DNA of 21,611 nucleotides from a virus. The stretch's first letter is position 1; each line of letters begins with the position of its first letter. The notes under the pieces are model-generated. The model searched no databases and was not told where the DNA came from. It was given only the letters and a program-made list of their open reading frames with translations. This document shows positions 9,035 through 17,830 of this stretch, piece by piece. A program made the position numbers and the translations under genes. Location of the stretch: the IMG/VR virus record IMGVR_UViG_3300046313_000549, positions 1 through 21,611 of that record, one strand, 5' to 3'.

Positions 9035-9089
9035 TAACGTTGCAATTAAGCGGTTGCTGTAGGCAGTCCGCTTGAATTGCGTGTTAGGG
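9032..9089 (-). repeat. attC1 (cassette 1)
   Basis: The left arm AACGTTGCAATTAAGCGG pairs with CCGCTTGAATTGCGTGTT, leaving one extrahelical G in the right arm (canonical LH on the minus strand). Right box GTTAGGG (9083-9089). The left box TGATAAC differs from all others and includes the Q-like stop codon. This is expected if this box comes from the original insertion target. Confidence 0.85.
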
Positions 9090-9123
9090 CGCTGGTTGAG
9101 AAACGAACGAAAGGACGATTGAC

Positions 9124-9726
9124 ATGGAATTTCAAGACTTCCCGAAGATGGCGCGGCTGACCCGCGAAGTGATCGTGACCGAGAAGATAGACGGCACGAA
9201 CGCGCAGGTTTTCATTGGCGAGGATGGCGAGCTGCTGGCAGGAAGCCGCACCCGCTGGATTACCCCGGCTGACGACAACTTTGGATTCGCTGCATGGGTG
9301 CAGGCGCACCGCGACGAGCTGCTGACGCTGGGGCCTGGCCGCCACTTTGGCGAGTGGTGGGGTGCCGGCATTCAGCGCCGGTACGGCTTGAGCGAAAAGC
9401 GATTCAGCTTGTTCAACGTGCAGCGGTGGGCGTTGCACGGCACTGCGCCGAAAACCTACCCGACCGCCGACCCGCGAGTGACGCGCACGCAAGACGTGCT
9501 GCCGCCCTGCTGCGGGCTGGTGCCTGTGCTGTACCAAGGCCCGTTTGACACTGCGGCAGTTGATCGGTGCATTGAAAGCCTGCGGCTTACCGGCAGCGTG
9601 GCCGCGCCCGGCTTCATGAAGCCCGAGGGCGTGGTGGTTTTCCACACAGCCGGCAACGTGGGATTCAAGAAGACGGTGGAGAAGGACGAGGTGCCGAAGG
9701 TTCTTGCCGCGCTGCAGGTGGCCTAA
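9124..9726 (+). CDS. Cassette 1: RNA ligase (nucleotidyltransferase superfamily)
   Basis: A 200-residue protein holding the complete ligase nucleotidyltransferase motif set. Motif I is EKIDGTN (Lys21, the expected adenylated lysine), motif III is FGEWWG (Glu77), and motif IIIa is FSLFNVQRW (94-102). Motif IV is KPEGVVVF (Glu168) and motif V is GFKKTVEKDE (Lys182, Lys183). There is no OB-fold domain, which fits small RNA ligases rather than DNA ligases. Such enzymes seal 5'-phosphate and 3'-OH RNA ends; in phage T4 this repairs tRNAs cut by host anticodon nucleases. A kinase/phosphatase partner is not seen nearby. It is preceded by an AAAGGA ribosome-binding site, and its TAA stop is the TAA of the right-hand core box, so the stop travels with the cassette. 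Confidence 0.85.
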   Translation: MEFQDFPKMARLTREVIVTEKIDGTNAQVFIGEDGELLAGSRTRWITPADDNFGFAAWVQAHRDELLTLGPGRHFGEWWGAGIQRRYGLSEKRFSLFNVQRWALHGTAPKTYPTADPRVTRTQDVLPPCCGLVPVLYQGPFDTAAVDRCIESLRLTGSVAAPGFMKPEGVVVFHTAGNVGFKKTVEKDEVPKVLAALQVA

Positions 9727-9783
9727 CGTCGAAGCTAAGGCGCAGACGCGCCAGCGGCTGTCGCCTTGAGCGACCAGTTAGGC
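9721..9783 (-). repeat. attC2 (cassette 2)
   Basis: Boxes GCCTAAC (9721-9727) and GTTAGGC (9777-9783). The arms GTCGAAGCTAAGGCG and CGCCTTGAGCGAC pair, with the same extra G after CGCCTT as in the other sites. The central segment of about 19 nt is the loop region. Confidence 0.85.
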
Positions 9784-9805
9784 AGCATCTGGTGGAGAAC
9801 CGACC

Positions 9806-10129
9806 ATGCCGATAAGACCTGAGAACCGCGCACGCTACCCGAAGGACTGGAAGCGCATAGCGGACGCGATCAGAGAGCGCGCCCAGCAGCAGTGCGAGGG
9901 CTCGCCGGCCTACCCGGACTGCCGCGCGCCCAACGGTGAGCCGCACCCGGTGACCGGCTCGCGGGTTGTGCTGACGGTGGCGCACCTGGACCACACGCCG
10001 GAGAACTGCGAGCCGCACAACCTGAAGGCGATGTGCCAGCGCTGCCACCTGACGTATGACGCCGAGCACCACAAGCGAACCGCCTACCGGACCCGCAAAG
10101 ATGCGGCGATGACGGCGGACCTGTTTTGA
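9806..10129 (+). CDS. Cassette 2: HNH endonuclease
   Basis: A 107-residue HNH nuclease. CEGSPAYPDC (Cys30, Cys39) and CQRC (Cys77, Cys80) form the structural zinc site. The catalytic beta-beta-alpha-metal core is VAHLDHTPENCEPHNLKAMC with His60, Asp62, His63 and Asn72, followed by CHLTYDAEHH. Such proteins cut or nick duplex DNA. In phages they act as packaging-associated nucleases or homing enzymes, and some are defence effectors. No terminase is in the window, so a packaging role cannot be supported. It starts 22 nt after the right core box with a GGTGGAG ribosome-binding site. Confidence 0.85.
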   Translation: MPIRPENRARYPKDWKRIADAIRERAQQQCEGSPAYPDCRAPNGEPHPVTGSRVVLTVAHLDHTPENCEPHNLKAMCQRCHLTYDAEHHKRTAYRTRKDAAMTADLF

Positions 10130-10133
10130 TGCT

Positions 10134-10190
10134 GCCTAACGTTGCCGATAAGCGGCCCGTACTCGGGTCCGCTTGATTGGCGTGTTAGGC
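10134..10190 (-). repeat. attC3 (cassette 3)
   Basis: Boxes GCCTAAC (10134-10140) and GTTAGGC (10184-10190). The arms GTTGCCGATAAGCGG and CCGCTTGATTGGC pair with one extrahelical G. Read on the minus strand it has the textbook environmental attC form (TCAAGCGG ... CCGCTTA). Confidence 0.9.
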
Positions 10191-10219
10191 GTGTGGTGGA
10201 AAACCGAGAGGAACTAGGA

Positions 10220-10498
10220 ATGCAAAGAACGATTGAACAGTGGCGCGGCTGCGACCCGCAAGCGATGGCAACCGAGCAGAGCGCAGAGGCCCGGATGTTT
10301 GCGCACCGAGACGCACGCGCCGACATTCTGGAGCTGGACGGCGAGCGCGGCGTGCTGCTGGGACTGCTGACCGACTGCGCGGCGGTGCTGCGCACGATTG
10401 ACCCTGACGACAGCGACGAGGCCGAGAAGCTGGCCGACCTGCTGGGCGCGATTGACCGTGCGCAGGCCCCGACCCGCCACCAAGGATCATTGCTGTGA
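10220..10498 (+). CDS. Cassette 3, first gene: helical protein of unknown function
   Basis: A 92-residue protein from the ATG at 10220, with an AGAGGA ribosome-binding site upstream; the longer frame through attC3 is not a natural protein. It is acidic and helical (EARMFAHRDARADILELDGE, LLTDCAAVLRTIDPDDSDEA), possibly forming a coiled coil. Phages often carry similar small proteins of unknown role near their morons. Its stop overlaps the GTG of the second cassette gene. Confidence 0.65.
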   Translation: MQRTIEQWRGCDPQAMATEQSAEARMFAHRDARADILELDGERGVLLGLLTDCAAVLRTIDPDDSDEAEKLADLLGAIDRAQAPTRHQGSLL

Positions 10499-10764
10499 TT
10501 GACCTGACCGACAAAGTGGCCGCCTACGCGAACGCGCTGGACAGCGACATTGATACCGAGCGATTTGAGCAGGTGCGCAACCGCGCTTTGTGGCGTGGCT
10601 GGATTGGCACGATCTACGGCGCTGGGGTGGGCACGGAAGCGGGCTATGCGTTTTGCACCAAGAACGACGCGCTGGCGAATGCCAAGCAAATGCGCGAGCA
10701 GTGCCGCGACATTGTGCGGGCCAGGAATGCTGGCGGTGCGCAACACGCCGAACGTGGGAATTGA
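10495..10764 (+). CDS. Cassette 3, second gene: unknown protein running into attC4
   Basis: An 89-residue protein from a GTG overlapping the previous stop. The middle (RALWRGWIGTIYGAGVGTEA) is Gly/aromatic-rich; flanks are helical. The last residues (about AGGAQHAERGN) are encoded by attC4, meaning the frame reads out of its cassette into the next attC. The natural stop may have been lost. Function unknown. It makes cassette 3 a two-gene cassette. Confidence 0.6.
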   Translation: MIDLTDKVAAYANALDSDIDTERFEQVRNRALWRGWIGTIYGAGVGTEAGYAFCTKNDALANAKQMREQCRDIVRARNAGGAQHAERGN

Positions 10765-10801
10765 GCCGCCGTACTCGGTCGGCTCGAATGACGGGTTAGG
10801 C
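10747..10801 (-). repeat. attC4 (cassette 4)
   Basis: Left box GCCGAAC (10747-10753, one base off the usual GCCTAAC) and right box GTTAGGC (10795-10801). The arms GAATTGAGCCG and CGGCTCGAATGAC pair with an extra G in the usual place; the outer spacer is less well paired than in the other sites. Confidence 0.75.
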
Positions 10802-10842
10802 GTCACCCGCGACGACGCCAACTGACAAGGAATGCTTGACAC

Positions 10843-11187
10843 ATGGAAACCGAAACGACTTGGACGAAGCTGCCGGCCATTGAAGGCAAGTTCGGAGGCT
10901 GCTTGTGCTGTGGCGTGCGCGCCAGCTTCTTCCCGCCTGACGGCGTGATTGCCGTGGGCTTTGGCTATGCCGGCCTGCACCGCGACGGCGAGCCGGTGTG
11001 GACCGAGCCCAACGAGCCGACCGACGACGACGCCTACATGACCGGGAAGATTGCAGAGGAACGGGCCGCCGCCGACCCTGACCACGACTGGCGCATTTTG
11101 CTGGAAGGCCCGCTGTCCGGCCGGACGTACCAACGCCACGGCCCCAACCATTGGGCGCTGGTGGAACAGAACATGGGTTTTGCGTGA
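10843..11187 (+). CDS. Cassette 4: unknown protein with a CxxC pair
   Basis: A 114-residue acidic protein. GGCLCCGVRASFFPPDGVIA near residues 18-37 contains a Cys cluster and a beta-rich segment, followed by FGYAGLHRDGEPVW and a C-terminal WALVEQ strand. It looks like a compact alpha/beta domain with a possible metal site. I do not recognise the family. The start is at 10843 with AAGGAATG upstream. The stop lies one base before the core box of attC5. Confidence 0.65.
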   Translation: METETTWTKLPAIEGKFGGCLCCGVRASFFPPDGVIAVGFGYAGLHRDGEPVWTEPNEPTDDDAYMTGKIAEERAAADPDHDWRILLEGPLSGRTYQRHGPNHWALVEQNMGFA

Positions 11188-11188
11188 C

Positions 11189-11246
11189 GCCTAACGTTCG
11201 AGTTGAGCCGCCGCCGTAGGCGGTCGGATCGAACGAGGGGTTATGC
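11189..11246 (-). repeat. attC5 (cassette 5)
   Basis: Left box GCCTAAC (11189-11195), right box GTTATGC (11240-11246); they mismatch each other in the array. The right box does match the GCATAAC at the other end of the same cassette (12010-12016). The arms GTTCGAGTTGAGCCG and CGGATCGAACGAG pair imperfectly with the extra G. Confidence 0.85.
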
Positions 11247-11275
11247 GTGTGGTGAACGAAGGAACGAAAGCGAGC

Positions 11276-12046
11276 ATGAATGAGCTGGCACTATTTGCAG
11301 GGGCAGGAGGCGGCATCTTGGGAGGGCACCTCCTTGGATGGCGCACCGTCTGCGCTGTTGAGCTTGATGCCTACGCCAGAAGCGTGCTGCTTGCCAGGCA
11401 GCGCGACGGACTGTTGCCACGGTTCCCGGTGTGGGACGACGTGCGGACCTTCGACGGCAAGCCCTGGGCAAGAACAGTGCATGTCGTGTCTGGTGGATTC
11501 CCCTGCACCGACATTTCAGTTGCTGGCGCAGGAGCCGGGATTGACGGGCCTGAAAGCGGCCTATGGCGGGACATGGCGCGGGTGGTTCGTGAAGTTCGAC
11601 CCCGCTTCGTGTACGTGGAGAACTCCCCAGCTCTCACTGCTCGGGGACTCGGAACCGTACTCGGCGACCTGGCCTCAATGGGGTTTGATGCTCGATGGGG
11701 CGTGCTTGGCGCTGACAACGCCGACGCTCCGCACGAGAGAAAGAGACTTTGGATTCTGGCCGACGCTTACAGCTTCAATCGGGGCGAAGTGTGGCGGTCG
11801 GCACCGCGGCAAGGCGGACACGCTGGCGAGCAGGCTGGCCGAGACAGAGGGGCTTTCGACTTCATCGACTGGCCGCGTGAACCCGACGTGGGCCGAGTGG
11901 TTGATGGGGTTCCCCGAAGGGTGGAGCGACTGCGCGCCCTTGGAAACGCACAAGTTCCACGAGTGGCAGCGGCAGCATGGCGCATGCTGACTGCCGGCAC
12001 GCGGAACACGCATAACGCTGAGCTAACCGGACCACAAGGGCGCTGA
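11276..12046 (+). CDS. Cassette 5: C5-cytosine DNA methyltransferase
   Basis: A 256-residue Dcm-type enzyme from the ATG at 11276. Motif I is LFAGAGGG (6-13), and the motif IV catalytic loop is SGGFPCTDIS with Cys77. Motif VI is YVENSP (Glu115; ENS instead of the common ENV). The motif VIII region is HERKRLWILA (153-162), and motif X is RLRALGNAQVP near the C-terminus. It methylates cytosine C5 in a specific duplex site. It is short for the family, and the target-recognition region between motifs VIII and IX is small. The last 14 or so residues (THNAELTGPQGR) are encoded by attC6, so the frame runs out of its cassette. No cognate nuclease is visible, so anti-restriction is the likeliest role. 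A second frame overlaps it almost completely (11280-11990). Confidence 0.85.
   Translation: MNELALFAGAGGGILGGHLLGWRTVCAVELDAYARSVLLARQRDGLLPRFPVWDDVRTFDGKPWARTVHVVSGGFPCTDISVAGAGAGIDGPESGLWRDMARVVREVRPRFVYVENSPALTARGLGTVLGDLASMGFDARWGVLGADNADAPHERKRLWILADAYSFNRGEVWRSAPRQGGHAGEQAGRDRGAFDFIDWPREPDVGRVVDGVPRRVERLRALGNAQVPRVAAAAWRMLTAGTRNTHNAELTGPQGR
11280..11990 (+). CDS. Overlapping +1-frame ORF inside the C5 methyltransferase gene
   Basis: A 236-codon frame whose ATG lies 4 nt after the methyltransferase ATG; it is read in the +1 frame for its whole length. The product is Trp/Ser/Thr/Pro-rich. Its beginning (MSWHYLQGQEAASWEGTSLD) and end (PTWAEWLMGFPEGWSDCAPL) resemble a family of hypothetical phage proteins I remember with a conserved EWLMGxPxGWTxLxPLET ending. 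The same DNA gives the methyltransferase PDVGRVVDGVPRRVERLRAL segment in the other frame. Either this is a genuine overprinted gene, or that family is a recurrent shadow of this methyltransferase group. No function is known. Expression cannot be judged from sequence alone. Confidence 0.4.
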   Translation: MSWHYLQGQEAASWEGTSLDGAPSALLSLMPTPEACCLPGSATDCCHGSRCGTTCGPSTASPGQEQCMSCLVDSPAPTFQLLAQEPGLTGLKAAYGGTWRGWFVKFDPASCTWRTPQLSLLGDSEPYSATWPQWGLMLDGACLALTTPTLRTRERDFGFWPTLTASIGAKCGGRHRGKADTLASRLAETEGLSTSSTGRVNPTWAEWLMGFPEGWSDCAPLETHKFHEWQRQHGAC

Positions 12047-12109
12047 TGACCTACGAAGAAGCCACACTGCCGACCGCCCTTGTGGGTCCGGTTGAGCGAC
12101 GTGTTATGC
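12010..12109 (-). repeat. attC6 (cassette 6), long form
   Basis: Boxes GCATAAC (12010-12016) and GTTATGC (12103-12109). The arms CTGAGCTAACCGG and CCGGTTGAGCGAC pair with the extra G, and the stem continues with ACCACAAGGGCG against CGCCCTTGTGGGT, leaving an apical loop of about 30 nt. The stop of the methyltransferase (12044-12046) and an overlapping ATG (12046) lie in that loop. Confidence 0.9.
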
Positions 12110-12786
12110 GCCCGGTGGAGTGCTTACGCACTGTGGCGGCCTTGTACGTTGAGCCGAAGGGCTGCTATGTAGGCGTGCCGGGTGTTGACCCGTGGGACGA
12201 AGCCCGCGATGCACGCACCTACGCAGGCCCGCACCCGGTGGTGTGCCATAGCCCGTGCCAGCGATGGGGCAGGTTTTGGCACGGCAGCACCCGCAAGCCG
12301 CACCAGTACAAGCTAGGCGACGACGGCGGGTGCTTTGAAGCCGCACTGCGCGCCGTGCTGCGCTGGGGTGGCGTGCTGGAGCACCCGGCACACAGCAAGG
12401 CGTGGGAGGCGTTCGGCTTGCTGAAGCCGACGATGGGCAAGGGCTGGCAGCGCAGCGACATGGGCCACCCGAGCAGCGGCTACTGGGTGTGCTACGTGGA
12501 ACAGGGCCACTACGGGCACACCAGCCGCAAACCGACATGGCTGCTTGCCGTGACCGACAGCAAGCCGCAGGAACTGAACTGGACAAAGGGCGAGCAACGA
12601 CTGCCCGAATGGATGATTGAGCGCTACGGCTACGAGAAGGCCAGGCGCATCGGCGTGGTAGCGATGGTGGGCGGGAAGAACAAGACCGCGATCCGCAACG
12701 CCACGCCTGAACCTTTCCGCGACCTGCTGCTGTCGATAGCGCGGCAGGCGCATAACGTTCGAGCTAACGGGGAGACGACGGAATGA
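12106..12786 (+). CDS. Cassette 6: phage protein, possibly methyltransferase-like
   Basis: A 226-residue protein. The frame is open from an ATG at 12046 in the attC6 loop. An ATG at 12106 lies inside the core box GTTATGC, and a GTG at 12133 with GGTGGAG ahead would match where similar phage proteins start (VAALYVEPKG), so the true start is uncertain. Features are DPWDEARDARTYAGPHPVV, CHSPCQRWGRFWHG (SPC reminiscent of the PPC loop of cytosine methyltransferases), GGVLEHPAHSKAW (like the EN motif strand), and a C-terminal FRDLLLSIAR. I recall this as a common phage family of unknown role. A degenerate methyltransferase fold is my inference. Its last residues are encoded by attC7. Confidence 0.65.
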   Translation: MRPVECLRTVAALYVEPKGCYVGVPGVDPWDEARDARTYAGPHPVVCHSPCQRWGRFWHGSTRKPHQYKLGDDGGCFEAALRAVLRWGGVLEHPAHSKAWEAFGLLKPTMGKGWQRSDMGHPSSGYWVCYVEQGHYGHTSRKPTWLLAVTDSKPQELNWTKGEQRLPEWMIERYGYEKARRIGVVAMVGGKNKTAIRNATPEPFRDLLLSIARQAHNVRANGETTE

Positions 12787-12875
12787 CGACAGGCCCGACA
12801 GATGCAAAAGTGACCACAGCGGCTGGCGGGCCTGGCGGCATGCCGTTGGCTCTCCTGTTGAGCGAGGGGTTAGGC
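12750..12875 (-). repeat. attC7 (cassette 7), longest form
   Basis: Left box GCATAAC (12750-12756), right box GTTAGGC (12869-12875). The outer arms GTTCGAGCTAACGGGGAGACG and GGCTCTCCTGTTGAGCGAG pair imperfectly with the extra G. The inner AGGCCCG and CGGGCCT extend the stem. The upstream stop and a new ATG overlap inside it (ATGA at 12783-12786). Confidence 0.8.
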
Positions 12876-13292
12876 CCCAACGCACAGGCGTGGACATGCT
12901 TTCACTGCGGTGAAGTGTGCGCCGATGCCGAAGCCGCGCGCCTGCACTTTGGCAGCAGCGAACACCAGCAGCCTGGGTGCCAGATTGACCTGGCCGAGTA
13001 CCGCCGCATGGAGGAAGTGAACCGCCGCCACTGCGAGGAAGACACCGAACTGCACCGGGCGCTGCACCGCATGGAGTGCGAGCACCGCACGGCCCTGGTG
13101 CGCGCAGAAGAAGCAGGCTATGCCAAGGGTTTGGCAGCGTTGAAAGCCGGGTGGAAGTTTCAGCGCATCGACGGCGGCGTCTCGATCACACACACATCAG
13201 GCATGGGCGTGTTTGTGCGCGAGAAGGCGCAAGGTGCCCGCGAGATTCCAGAAGAATTGTTGCACGCACTGGCGCTGGACCTTGGGGCCTAA
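12783..13292 (+). CDS. Cassette 7: zinc-finger phage protein
   Basis: Up to 169 residues. WTCFHCGEVCADAEAARLHF, then EHQQPGC, is a C2H2-like zinc finger (Cys-x2-Cys ... His). It is followed by a long charged helix (YRRMEEVNRRHCEEDTELHR) and EEAGYAKGL, a pattern I know from hypothetical phage proteins whose N-terminus starts right at the finger. Here no start codon lies between the core box and the finger. Translation must begin inside attC7: the ATG at 12783 (overlapping the upstream stop), the ATG at 12840 or a TTG. The attC therefore supplies the start and an N-terminal extension. The TAA stop is part of the next core box. Nucleic-acid or protein binding is likely; the role is unknown. Confidence 0.7.
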   Translation: MTTGPTDAKVTTAAGGPGGMPLALLLSEGLGPNAQAWTCFHCGEVCADAEAARLHFGSSEHQQPGCQIDLAEYRRMEEVNRRHCEEDTELHRALHRMECEHRTALVRAEEAGYAKGLAALKAGWKFQRIDGGVSITHTSGMGVFVREKAQGAREIPEELLHALALDLGA

Positions 13293-13343
13293 CGCCCAGG
13301 TAAGCGGCGCCGGCACGGCGTCCGCTTGACCGACGTGTTAGGC
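13287..13343 (-). repeat. attC8 (cassette 8)
   Basis: Boxes GCCTAAC (13287-13293) and GTTAGGC (13337-13343). The arms CCAGGTAAGCGGCGCCG and CGGCGTCCGCTTGACC pair closely with one extra G. On the minus strand this is the most canonical site of the array (TCAAGCGGACG ... CCGCTTACC). Confidence 0.9.
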
Positions 13344-13375
13344 CGGCTGTTTTGTTTGCGCATCACAAATACTTG

Positions 13376-15604: not shown

Positions 15605-17830
15605 ATGCCATTCGATCTAGGCGTACTTGGTGGCCCTGTCACCTACACGACCGGCTTGTACGGTCAGGCGGTGAATGCAGGTACTCTGCGGAAACTGGGG
15701 TTGGGTGGGGTACTGCCATCAGCCACGCAGTTCACAGTGAACTGCACGGTCCTGAAGACTGGTTCGGGTACCCATGTCGCTTGTAGCCAAGTCGATGCGT
15801 TCTGGCTAGGTACTTTCAACAGCCTAACCGCCGTTGCGGCTTACGGGTCCGCCGCTGGTGCTCTAGTGGTAATGACGACCAGCGTGAACATCTCGGACGG
15901 CAACCCACACACGCTCAGGCTGGCGATGAGTCCTACCGGCGCGGTGCTTCTGGTGGATGGCGCTGTGGCGGCGACTTCGGCAGTGACCCCTGCCACAGCC
16001 GGTGTTGTGACGGGCGGCTTTTTCGATGTGCGTCACCTCAACGCCGGTTTTGGGTGGCCTAACGGCTGGGTGGATGAGGTGGCGGTATGGTCTTCGTACC
16101 AGCCTGACCCCTATACGCCAGCACTGATCGGCAACAACGCGCCGGGTCTTGTCTCGGTGTGGCACCTGGACGGCAACTTGCTGGACAGCGCCGGTAGCGC
16201 GCCCACGATCAGCGCGCAACCCAGCGGTGCCACGGTGACAGCGGGCGCGACGGCGACGTTCAGCGTGACCGCGAGCGGCGGCACCACGCCGTACACCTAC
16301 CAATGGCGACGCAACGGCATCGCCATCAGCGGCGCAACCGCCAGCGCCTACACCACGCCCGCCACGACCCTCAGCGGCGGCACCGCGAACAACGGCGACG
16401 TGTATTCGGTGGTGGTGACGGATGCAGGAGCGGCGTCAGTCACGTCGAGCGGCGCAACGCTGACCGTGACCAGCAACGCGGCCACTGCCATCACGCTGAC
16501 TGGCCCCTCGACGGGCCCGGCAGGCGCGGCTTCGTCCAACTTCACTGCCGCTGCGAACGGCGTCATCACGGGCACCGTGCCCGTCACGCCATCGGACAGC
16601 GGCGCTGGCGGCACGTTCACCCCAGCCAGCCTGAGCATCAGCAGCGGCACGCCGACAGCTACTTTCAGCTACACGGCCAGCAGCGCCGGGGCAAAGACCA
16701 TCAGCGTCTCCAACGGTGGTGGATTGTCGAACCCTGCCAGCCTCACGTACACGGCTACCGCGCCCGCGCTGTACGTCCGAGTAGACGCGACTGAAGCTCT
16801 GACGGGCCAGCCGATCATGGTGCTGGTGCCGAGCGGCGCTTCTGCTCTGCCCTACAACGCAGCCAATCCGACCCGCGTCGTCATCTACTGCCACGGCCAC
16901 GGAGAAGACCAGACCGCACTGCTCAGCGATCCGATCAAGAGTGCGTGCGTCAACGCGCTGCTGAATGCCGGCTTCATCCTGGCTGGCTGCAATGCGTTTG
17001 GTAGCACCTGGGGGAACCAGGCCGTGGCGGACAGTTACGCCGGACTGGCGCGGTATCTGAGGGCCAACTACAACGTGCACCCGGCTGGTGTGGCTGTGTG
17101 GTCAATGAGCATGGGTGGCCTGCCTGGCACGGCAATGGTCGTGCAGCGAAAGGCCGGCCCCATTGTTGGCTGGCTCGGTACTTATCCCGTCTGCAACTTG
17201 GCGAATCTGTACAGCCTCGGAACCTACACCGGGGTCATCAATGCAGCTTTTGGAATTGGCGCGGGTGACGCCACCTACGCAAACAAGACCGTTGGTATGG
17301 ACCCGGTGCTAAGGGCCGCATCAGACTACCGGGACACGCCCGTGCGCATCTACAGCAGCAGGAGCGACACGGTGGTTCCCGGCGAGCAGAACGGGGAACT
17401 GTTGGCGACACTGCTGGCAGGCTCGCGCATTGAAGCCACGCACGTCTCGTGTACCGGCAATCACGGCGACCCGAGCCATTTGGTGCCCGCCGAGTATGTT
17501 GCGTTTATTGACCGCTGCTACAGCTACGCCACGCGCAGCACCCGCACCGTGGCTGTCACGATCACGACAGACGGCACCACGCCGCGTGCCAGCGAGACCG
17601 GCTTGAAGTGGAGCGTGCGCGAGTGCAGCGTTCCAGGCGGGGTTTACGGCCCGGTGATCGCGCATGGATCAAACGGTGCCATCACCGGAGGCGCGGGCCT
17701 GTTCAGCGTGTCGGTGTCCACGTACATCGCGCCCGGTTCGACGGTTTGGCTTGACGTCACAAGCAGCGACGGCACCACGACGCAGAGCCCCATGGGCTGG
17801 CAGTGGAGCGGGCCGTTGGTGGTGACCTGA
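15605..17830 (+). CDS. Tail-fibre-like protein: LamG-like, Ig-like and alpha/beta-hydrolase domains
   Basis: A 741-residue multidomain protein. Residues about 1-195 form a LamG/concanavalin-like beta sandwich (DGNPHTLRLAMSPTGAVLLV, FFDVRHLNAGFGWPNGWVDE). Residues about 200-290 form an Ig-like domain (ISAQPSGATVTAGATATFSV, then YQWRRNGIAISGA), and a second Ig-like repeat follows to about residue 385. Residues about 390-640 form an alpha/beta hydrolase: oxyanion segment YCHGHG near 430, nucleophile elbow SMSMGG with Ser502, Asp588 in SSRSD and His620 in NHGDPSH. The C-terminal 100 residues are another beta domain. Phage fibres with esterase domains deacetylate or cleave surface polysaccharides during adsorption. 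A lipase- or depolymerase-like role is inferred. It overlaps the next gene by TGATG. Confidence 0.8.
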   Translation: MPFDLGVLGGPVTYTTGLYGQAVNAGTLRKLGLGGVLPSATQFTVNCTVLKTGSGTHVACSQVDAFWLGTFNSLTAVAAYGSAAGALVVMTTSVNISDGNPHTLRLAMSPTGAVLLVDGAVAATSAVTPATAGVVTGGFFDVRHLNAGFGWPNGWVDEVAVWSSYQPDPYTPALIGNNAPGLVSVWHLDGNLLDSAGSAPTISAQPSGATVTAGATATFSVTASGGTTPYTYQWRRNGIAISGATASAYTTPATTLSGGTANNGDVYSVVVTDAGAASVTSSGATLTVTSNAATAITLTGPSTGPAGAASSNFTAAANGVITGTVPVTPSDSGAGGTFTPASLSISSGTPTATFSYTASSAGAKTISVSNGGGLSNPASLTYTATAPALYVRVDATEALTGQPIMVLVPSGASALPYNAANPTRVVIYCHGHGEDQTALLSDPIKSACVNALLNAGFILAGCNAFGSTWGNQAVADSYAGLARYLRANYNVHPAGVAVWSMSMGGLPGTAMVVQRKAGPIVGWLGTYPVCNLANLYSLGTYTGVINAAFGIGAGDATYANKTVGMDPVLRAASDYRDTPVRIYSSRSDTVVPGEQNGELLATLLAGSRIEATHVSCTGNHGDPSHLVPAEYVAFIDRCYSYATRSTRTVAVTITTDGTTPRASETGLKWSVRECSVPGGVYGPVIAHGSNGAITGGAGLFSVSVSTYIAPGSTVWLDVTSSDGTTTQSPMGWQWSGPLVVT

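Follow-up and report, generated by a model that had tools for sequence, protein, structure and literature searches.

Overall, our comparative analysis of the locus at 11276-12046 of a viral record (the window, meaning the whole 21,611-base stretch that was analyzed) indicates that it very probably encodes a heterodimeric C5-cytosine methyltransferase, with the alpha subunit in one frame (frame A) and the beta subunit in a second, overlapping frame (frame B). Judged from sequence comparisons, both frames are maintained, the start codon of B is selected, selection alternates between the frames along the gene, and motifs IX and X are in B and A, respectively. We infer that B is translated and that both proteins would be initiated from one ribosome-binding region; with starts only 4 nt apart behind that shared region, A and B would come from one message. 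Alpha would supply the large domain for SAM binding and catalysis (motifs I-VIII) together with the motif X helix, and beta would supply a variable, presumed target-recognition, segment together with motif IX, that is, the small domain. The two would assemble into a complete C5 methyltransferase, and each frame would serve as an open spacer where its partner frame holds the function. Orphan phage methyltransferases usually shield phage DNA from restriction; the enzyme described here would probably modify the phage genome, for example against host restriction.

Parts of the two frames

Both frames lie on the plus strand, as do all features given below, and both were found where the preliminary description had placed them, running in parallel for 236 codons. 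Frame A, the proposed alpha subunit, spans 11276-12046 (256 aa, with an alternative in-frame ATG at 11243), and frame B, the proposed beta subunit, spans 11280-11990 (236 aa) and is +1 relative to A. The double start ATGAATGAGCTGG (11276-11288) opens A at 11276 and B, beginning with MSW, at 11280.

Frame A had been credited with all C5 methyltransferase motifs, and this did not hold, as motif IX is absent. Frame A matched PF00145 (E=5e-25) over residues 4-162, covering only Pfam positions 4-160 of 324, and the frame-A family profile matched M.HhaI in the PDB over 4-174 only. It also matched phrog_363 (E=7e-60), which PHROG labels DNA methyltransferase. Frame A carries motifs I-VIII and X; across 114 sequences, residues of motifs I, IV (PC), VI (ENV-type), VIII and X are invariant. 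Motif IV, which reads GGFPCTDIS and contains the catalytic Cys, lies at 11492-11518 (G73, G74, F75, P76, C77 and S81 are invariant), and the motif X helix VERLRALGNAQVPRVAAAAWRML lies at 11921-11989 (G223, N224 and Q226 are invariant). A target-recognition domain (TRD) accompanied by motif IX on one chain, as in a C5 methyltransferase of the ordinary kind, was not found in A, whose matches end at residue 162-174.

The C-terminal signature of frame B, NPTWAEWLMGFPEGWSD, is of the motif-IX type, and the motif itself, NPTWAEWLMGFPEGWSDC, lies at 11880-11933. Within these bases the segment PTWAEWLMGFP of B and the segment PDVGRVVDGVP of A are read from the same nucleotides, just as the preliminary description had it. 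We searched the frame-B motif segment profile in frame against 64 ordinary single-chain C5 methyltransferases, and its best matches fell on their motif IX (TPRECERLQGFPDGWTD), although each match was individually weak (E 0.004-0.02 for 67 sequences). The same profile gave stronger matches to L267, a plasmid-encoded Tsukamurella enzyme that is a single chain of about 545 aa (E=1e-6), to the +1 frame of a Streptomyces plasmid locus (L268, E=5e-8) and to gp5 of Gordonia phage McKinley (E=9e-6). Motif IX is encoded in the +1 frame, with motif X remaining in frame A, at 258 of the loci collected. The similarity of B around TWPQWG / WPxWGxMRNG is partly a shadow of motifs VII-VIII of A, and 35 ordinary methyltransferases match the WPxWGxMRNG profile in their +1 frame; given this partial shadow, the B core similarity (TWPQWG) was excluded as evidence.

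These data also bear on the possibility that B encodes an independent, overprinted phage protein, such as a regulator or a counter-defence factor, with a fortuitous likeness to motif IX. B has no recognised domain: Pfam and NCBIfam searches with it matched no family, and a PDB profile search gave one match, at chance level. Moreover, an hhalign comparison of the B family with the control family gave a single alignment, which fell on motif IX but is not significant alone (E 0.17), and hhalign of B against A gave no alignment. However, the one motif missing from A is present in B, the B profile singles out motif IX when run against ordinary enzymes, and selection on B peaks at the variable region and at motif IX. 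Additionally, a B homologue lacking the alpha frame was not found among the loci collected. The preliminary description had held that coincidence of every homologue with a methyltransferase frame would speak against B; the coincidence itself was observed in our data, yet it does not refute B, since a beta subunit needs its alpha. We therefore give little credence to an unrelated protein in frame B.

Maintenance of frame B and frame-specific selection

Relatives were collected by frame A alone, so that sampling on frame B was avoided. Essentially all of them are open in B, and their third frame contains 6-25 stops. When synonymous codons were permuted within each gene, keeping protein A and its codon usage, the mean probability of an open B per locus was about 0.005, with a mean of 4.9 stops. 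Across 37 A-sampled loci less than 75% identical, B contained 0 stops per gene compared with 4.88 after shuffling, the stop-codon avoidance that the preliminary description had proposed to look for; frame C of the same loci contained 13.6 observed stops and 11.7 shuffled stops. The same +1 frame of 64 ordinary full-length C5 methyltransferases contained 17.4 stops compared with 21.3 after shuffling and was open in none; these controls are on average more AT-rich than the frame-A/B loci, and the seven with a GC content of at least 0.46 were similar to the rest (11.1 observed and 15.1 shuffled stops). Whole-protein identity in B was also raised relative to shuffled codons, but it is uninformative alone because the identity of frame C rises as well. 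Among the relatives sampled on B, one carries two stops inside its matched frame-B stretch, and its B ends after 78 codons, reflecting either decay or a sequencing error.

Sequence comparison also points to selection on the B start codon, which is better conserved than the start of A. About 182 of 193 distinct loci have ATG as the B start. The codon 4 nt upstream, at the A start position, is ATG in 109 of them, GTG in 34 and TTG in 19; the remainder mostly have a non-start codon there, such as TTA or CTT, and in them A usually opens a few codons upstream. Codons 2 and 3 of A are AAT and GAG, each in 180 of the 193 loci, whereas AAT makes up 40% of Asn codons and GAG 35% of Glu codons elsewhere in these genes; the fixed bases are those that spell ATG AGY TGG (Met-Ser-Trp) in B. 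Where a Shine-Dalgarno sequence was matched, it mostly lies 4-5 nt before the A start, placing it 8-9 nt from the start of B; the one in the window is weak.

To locate selection along the gene, we took 43 independent pairs with a nucleotide identity of 0.80-0.97 and sorted their substitutions into nonsynonymous and synonymous ones for A and for B, counting opportunities in both contexts. The omega of A was taken as dNN/dSN and that of B as dNN/dNS, with kappa 2 and 95% bootstrap ranges; these omegas are pair-based counts rather than a full likelihood model, and they are pooled across the family rather than describing the window alone. Over codons 2-94 (11279-11557), A is constrained from motif I onwards (omega 0.14, range 0.12-0.17) and B is merely kept open (1.08, 0.92-1.29). 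In this region, changes that are synonymous in A but introduce a B stop run at 0.21 times the rate of other A-synonymous changes, a depletion not seen in control methyltransferases (0.460 vs 0.403). Over codons 95-165 (11558-11770), which run to and past motif VIII in A and include the B core FVKFDP..WRTPQ..TWPQWG, constraint is mainly in A (0.28, 0.23-0.31) and weak in B (0.74, 0.61-0.86). Codons 166-197 (11771-11866) hold the variable region, coded in B (0.38, 0.30-0.49), over which A is an unconstrained linker (1.45, 1.23-1.74). Both frames are constrained over codons 198-226 (A 0.57, 0.43-0.70; B 0.35, 0.23-0.46), and only A is constrained over codons 227-240 (A 0.32, 0.23-0.45; B 1.19, 0.93-1.56). 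Selection on B, which the proposed substitution test was meant to detect, was seen at codons 166-226.

From 5′ to 3′, the dNS/dSN ratios of the five regions are 0.13, 0.37, 3.83, 1.65 and 0.27; their order is stable at kappa 1 and 4, and the bootstrap ranges of regions run by A and regions run by B do not overlap. Ordinary C5 methyltransferases show no such switching between frames, with omegas of 0.34 in A and 0.90 in B over 27 control pairs. With finer windows, selection passes to B at codon 166 and returns to A at about codon 217, with codons 166-206 evolving in the B frame and not in A, and B selection is detected at codons 2-6 too. Between the window and the relative L013, 24 codons of the segment 166-197 could be compared, with an identity of 0.38 in A and 0.92 in B. 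In distant members these codons are dissimilar in both frames, which is expected if the recognition region differs between enzymes. The substitution pattern suggests that the variable segment in B is probably the target-recognition region, and only the N-terminal ~94 codons of B and codons 166-197 of A look like overprinted filler.

The predicted structures agree with this substitution map, although the model of B is of too low a quality to establish a fold. AlphaFold modeled A from 114 sequences with a pLDDT of 78 and a pTM of 0.76, predicting the catalytic fold and the motif X helix (helices 212-250), with pLDDT below 50 at 172-196 and 206-210, over the selected part of B. The model of B from 118 sequences was poor (pLDDT 55, pTM 0.27), with the lowest confidence over the first ~90-95 residues and the best (70-82) in the last 40 residues; a Foldseek search of it against the PDB returned no match.

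The alternation of function from A to B and back to A could also be read as a single chain made through two programmed frameshifts, from A to B after motif VIII and from B to A before motif X, and the single-chain relative L267 has all motifs in one frame. However, such a chain would explain neither the conserved B ATG with its MSW at the 5′ end nor why stops in B are avoided across codons 2-94, where it never reads B, and it would require two efficient shifts in opposite senses. We regard it as quite improbable, a shade more so than the unrelated protein. Finally, a phantom B, open only through composition and codon bias as the shadow of a conserved methyltransferase frame, could account for the shadowed WPxWGxMRNG similarity and the lack of a Pfam or NCBIfam family, but it is hardly credible in the face of the stops expected by shuffling and never seen, the selected start codon, the evolution of codons 166-206 in frame B and the recognition of true motif IX in other enzymes, and we rejected it on codon shuffles, start-codon conservation and frame-specific substitution. 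The preliminary description had posed a choice between an overprinted gene and a phantom. Its first half stands insofar as B appears selected; an overprinted gene unrelated to the methyltransferase is not the favored reading, as B carries motif IX and the variable region.

Comparison with known two-polypeptide and overlapping systems

The design proposed here, a two-subunit enzyme from overlapping frames, has a close parallel in M.EcoHK31I, whose beta subunit is reportedly also encoded in another frame inside alpha, with activity said to need both proteins. As summarized in PMC3404938 (citing Lee, Kam and Shaw 1995), this two-polypeptide C5 methyltransferase carries motifs I-VIII and X on its large subunit and motif IX on its small subunit, and its predicted TRD is on the large subunit. 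By motif layout, the window is alike, with I-VIII and X on A and IX on B. It differs in that its frames are nearly co-extensive, with starts 4 nt apart, in that it belongs to the orphan methyltransferases of phages and prophages, and in that its variable region, with a presumed TRD role, is under selection in B rather than placed in alpha. M.AquI is likewise one methyltransferase divided over two polypeptides, but PMC3404938 places motifs IX and X both on its small subunit, whereas the window keeps motif X in frame A. The Streptomyces plasmid locus L268 and mycobacteriophage Jeffabunny (L182) look nearer to the M.AquI type, with motifs I-VIII of alpha in one frame and the remainder read in +1. 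Methylase genes of actinophages can also contain an additional protein read in a different frame, the ShiLan element, a hidden HNH endonuclease (PMC11855218); that element is an inserted homing element, unlike frame B, which is no insertion and has a methyltransferase motif.

Our literature search for an overlapping-frame phage methyltransferase found none on point. The two-polypeptide design is known, with one characterised enzyme of this motif layout; new relative to the literature searched are the near co-extensive frames, the breadth across phages and prophages and the frame-by-frame selection map. As a natural example of two long frames that overlap and pass the functional load between them along the gene, the locus is unusually clear.

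Relatives, annotation and surrounding cassettes

The open +1 frame B was matched in 42 phage records (best E=1e-39), 412 viral stretches, five plasmid records and 149 stretches of bacterial genomes or prophages from many phyla. The overlap arrangement is old and widespread in phages and prophages, as the preliminary description had suspected, and databases usually name only one half of it. The resemblance of B to database phage proteins, also claimed earlier, was borne out by phrog_1008 (E=2e-18), whose label is, confusingly, also DNA methyltransferase, and by MG592659 and PP083311, where frame B is annotated as 'hypothetical protein'; the sister locus MG592466 is annotated in frame A. PHROG treats 363 (A) and 1008 (B) as separate proteins and does not link them as frames from a single locus. 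In the phage records L002 (1501-2199), L006 (1501-2229) and L174 (1432-2118), 'hypothetical protein' is the annotation of frame B and the methyltransferase frame is unannotated.

On balance, we favor the broader view that a large phage and prophage class of C5 enzymes consists of obligate two-subunit enzymes, in which the gene for the catalytic subunit would conceal the recognition subunit in its +1 frame, specificity would evolve in B and catalysis would be held in A, with most database entries naming half of the enzyme. A two-subunit enzyme would explain the truncated look of many phage C5 methyltransferases, and why one locus is labeled 'DNA methyltransferase' in some phages and 'hypothetical protein' in others. 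The annotated frame expressed alone should fail, and specificity screens of phage methyltransferases may therefore miss this class.

Other layouts occur among the relatives. In SG4, S72 and Porphyromonas phages, B is open over only the C-terminal two thirds or so, giving a shorter nested B. In Jeffabunny (L182 1429-2362, gp79/gp78), motifs I-VIII are in one gene, and LPTP recognition repeats and a motif-IX-like segment are in the +1 frame; given this split layout, actinophage annotations of the 'two methylase' kind may in many cases represent split enzymes. The Tsukamurella enzyme (L267 795-2429) has several LPTP repeats and motifs IX and X in a single frame, possibly an unsplit, ancestor-like form. 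Compared by layout, the single-frame L267, the L268 and Jeffabunny arrangement and the window suggest a series of splits.

In the window, a repeat of ~37 nt (..TTGAGCGACGTGTTATGCGCC, partner GCCTAACGTT..) occurs at least seven times in the region 9053-13346, at a spacing of ~400-1100 nt. The copies are separated by about one gene each and form an attC-like cassette array in a viral contig. The methyltransferase pair is one cassette of this array, with the stop of A at the downstream repeat, and another cassette gene (9124-9726) encodes an RNA ligase domain protein (PF09414, E=1e-14). Further along, at 15605-17830, a 741-aa open reading frame contains an immunoglobulin-like domain (PF13927), together with a SprB-repeat match below the cut-off.
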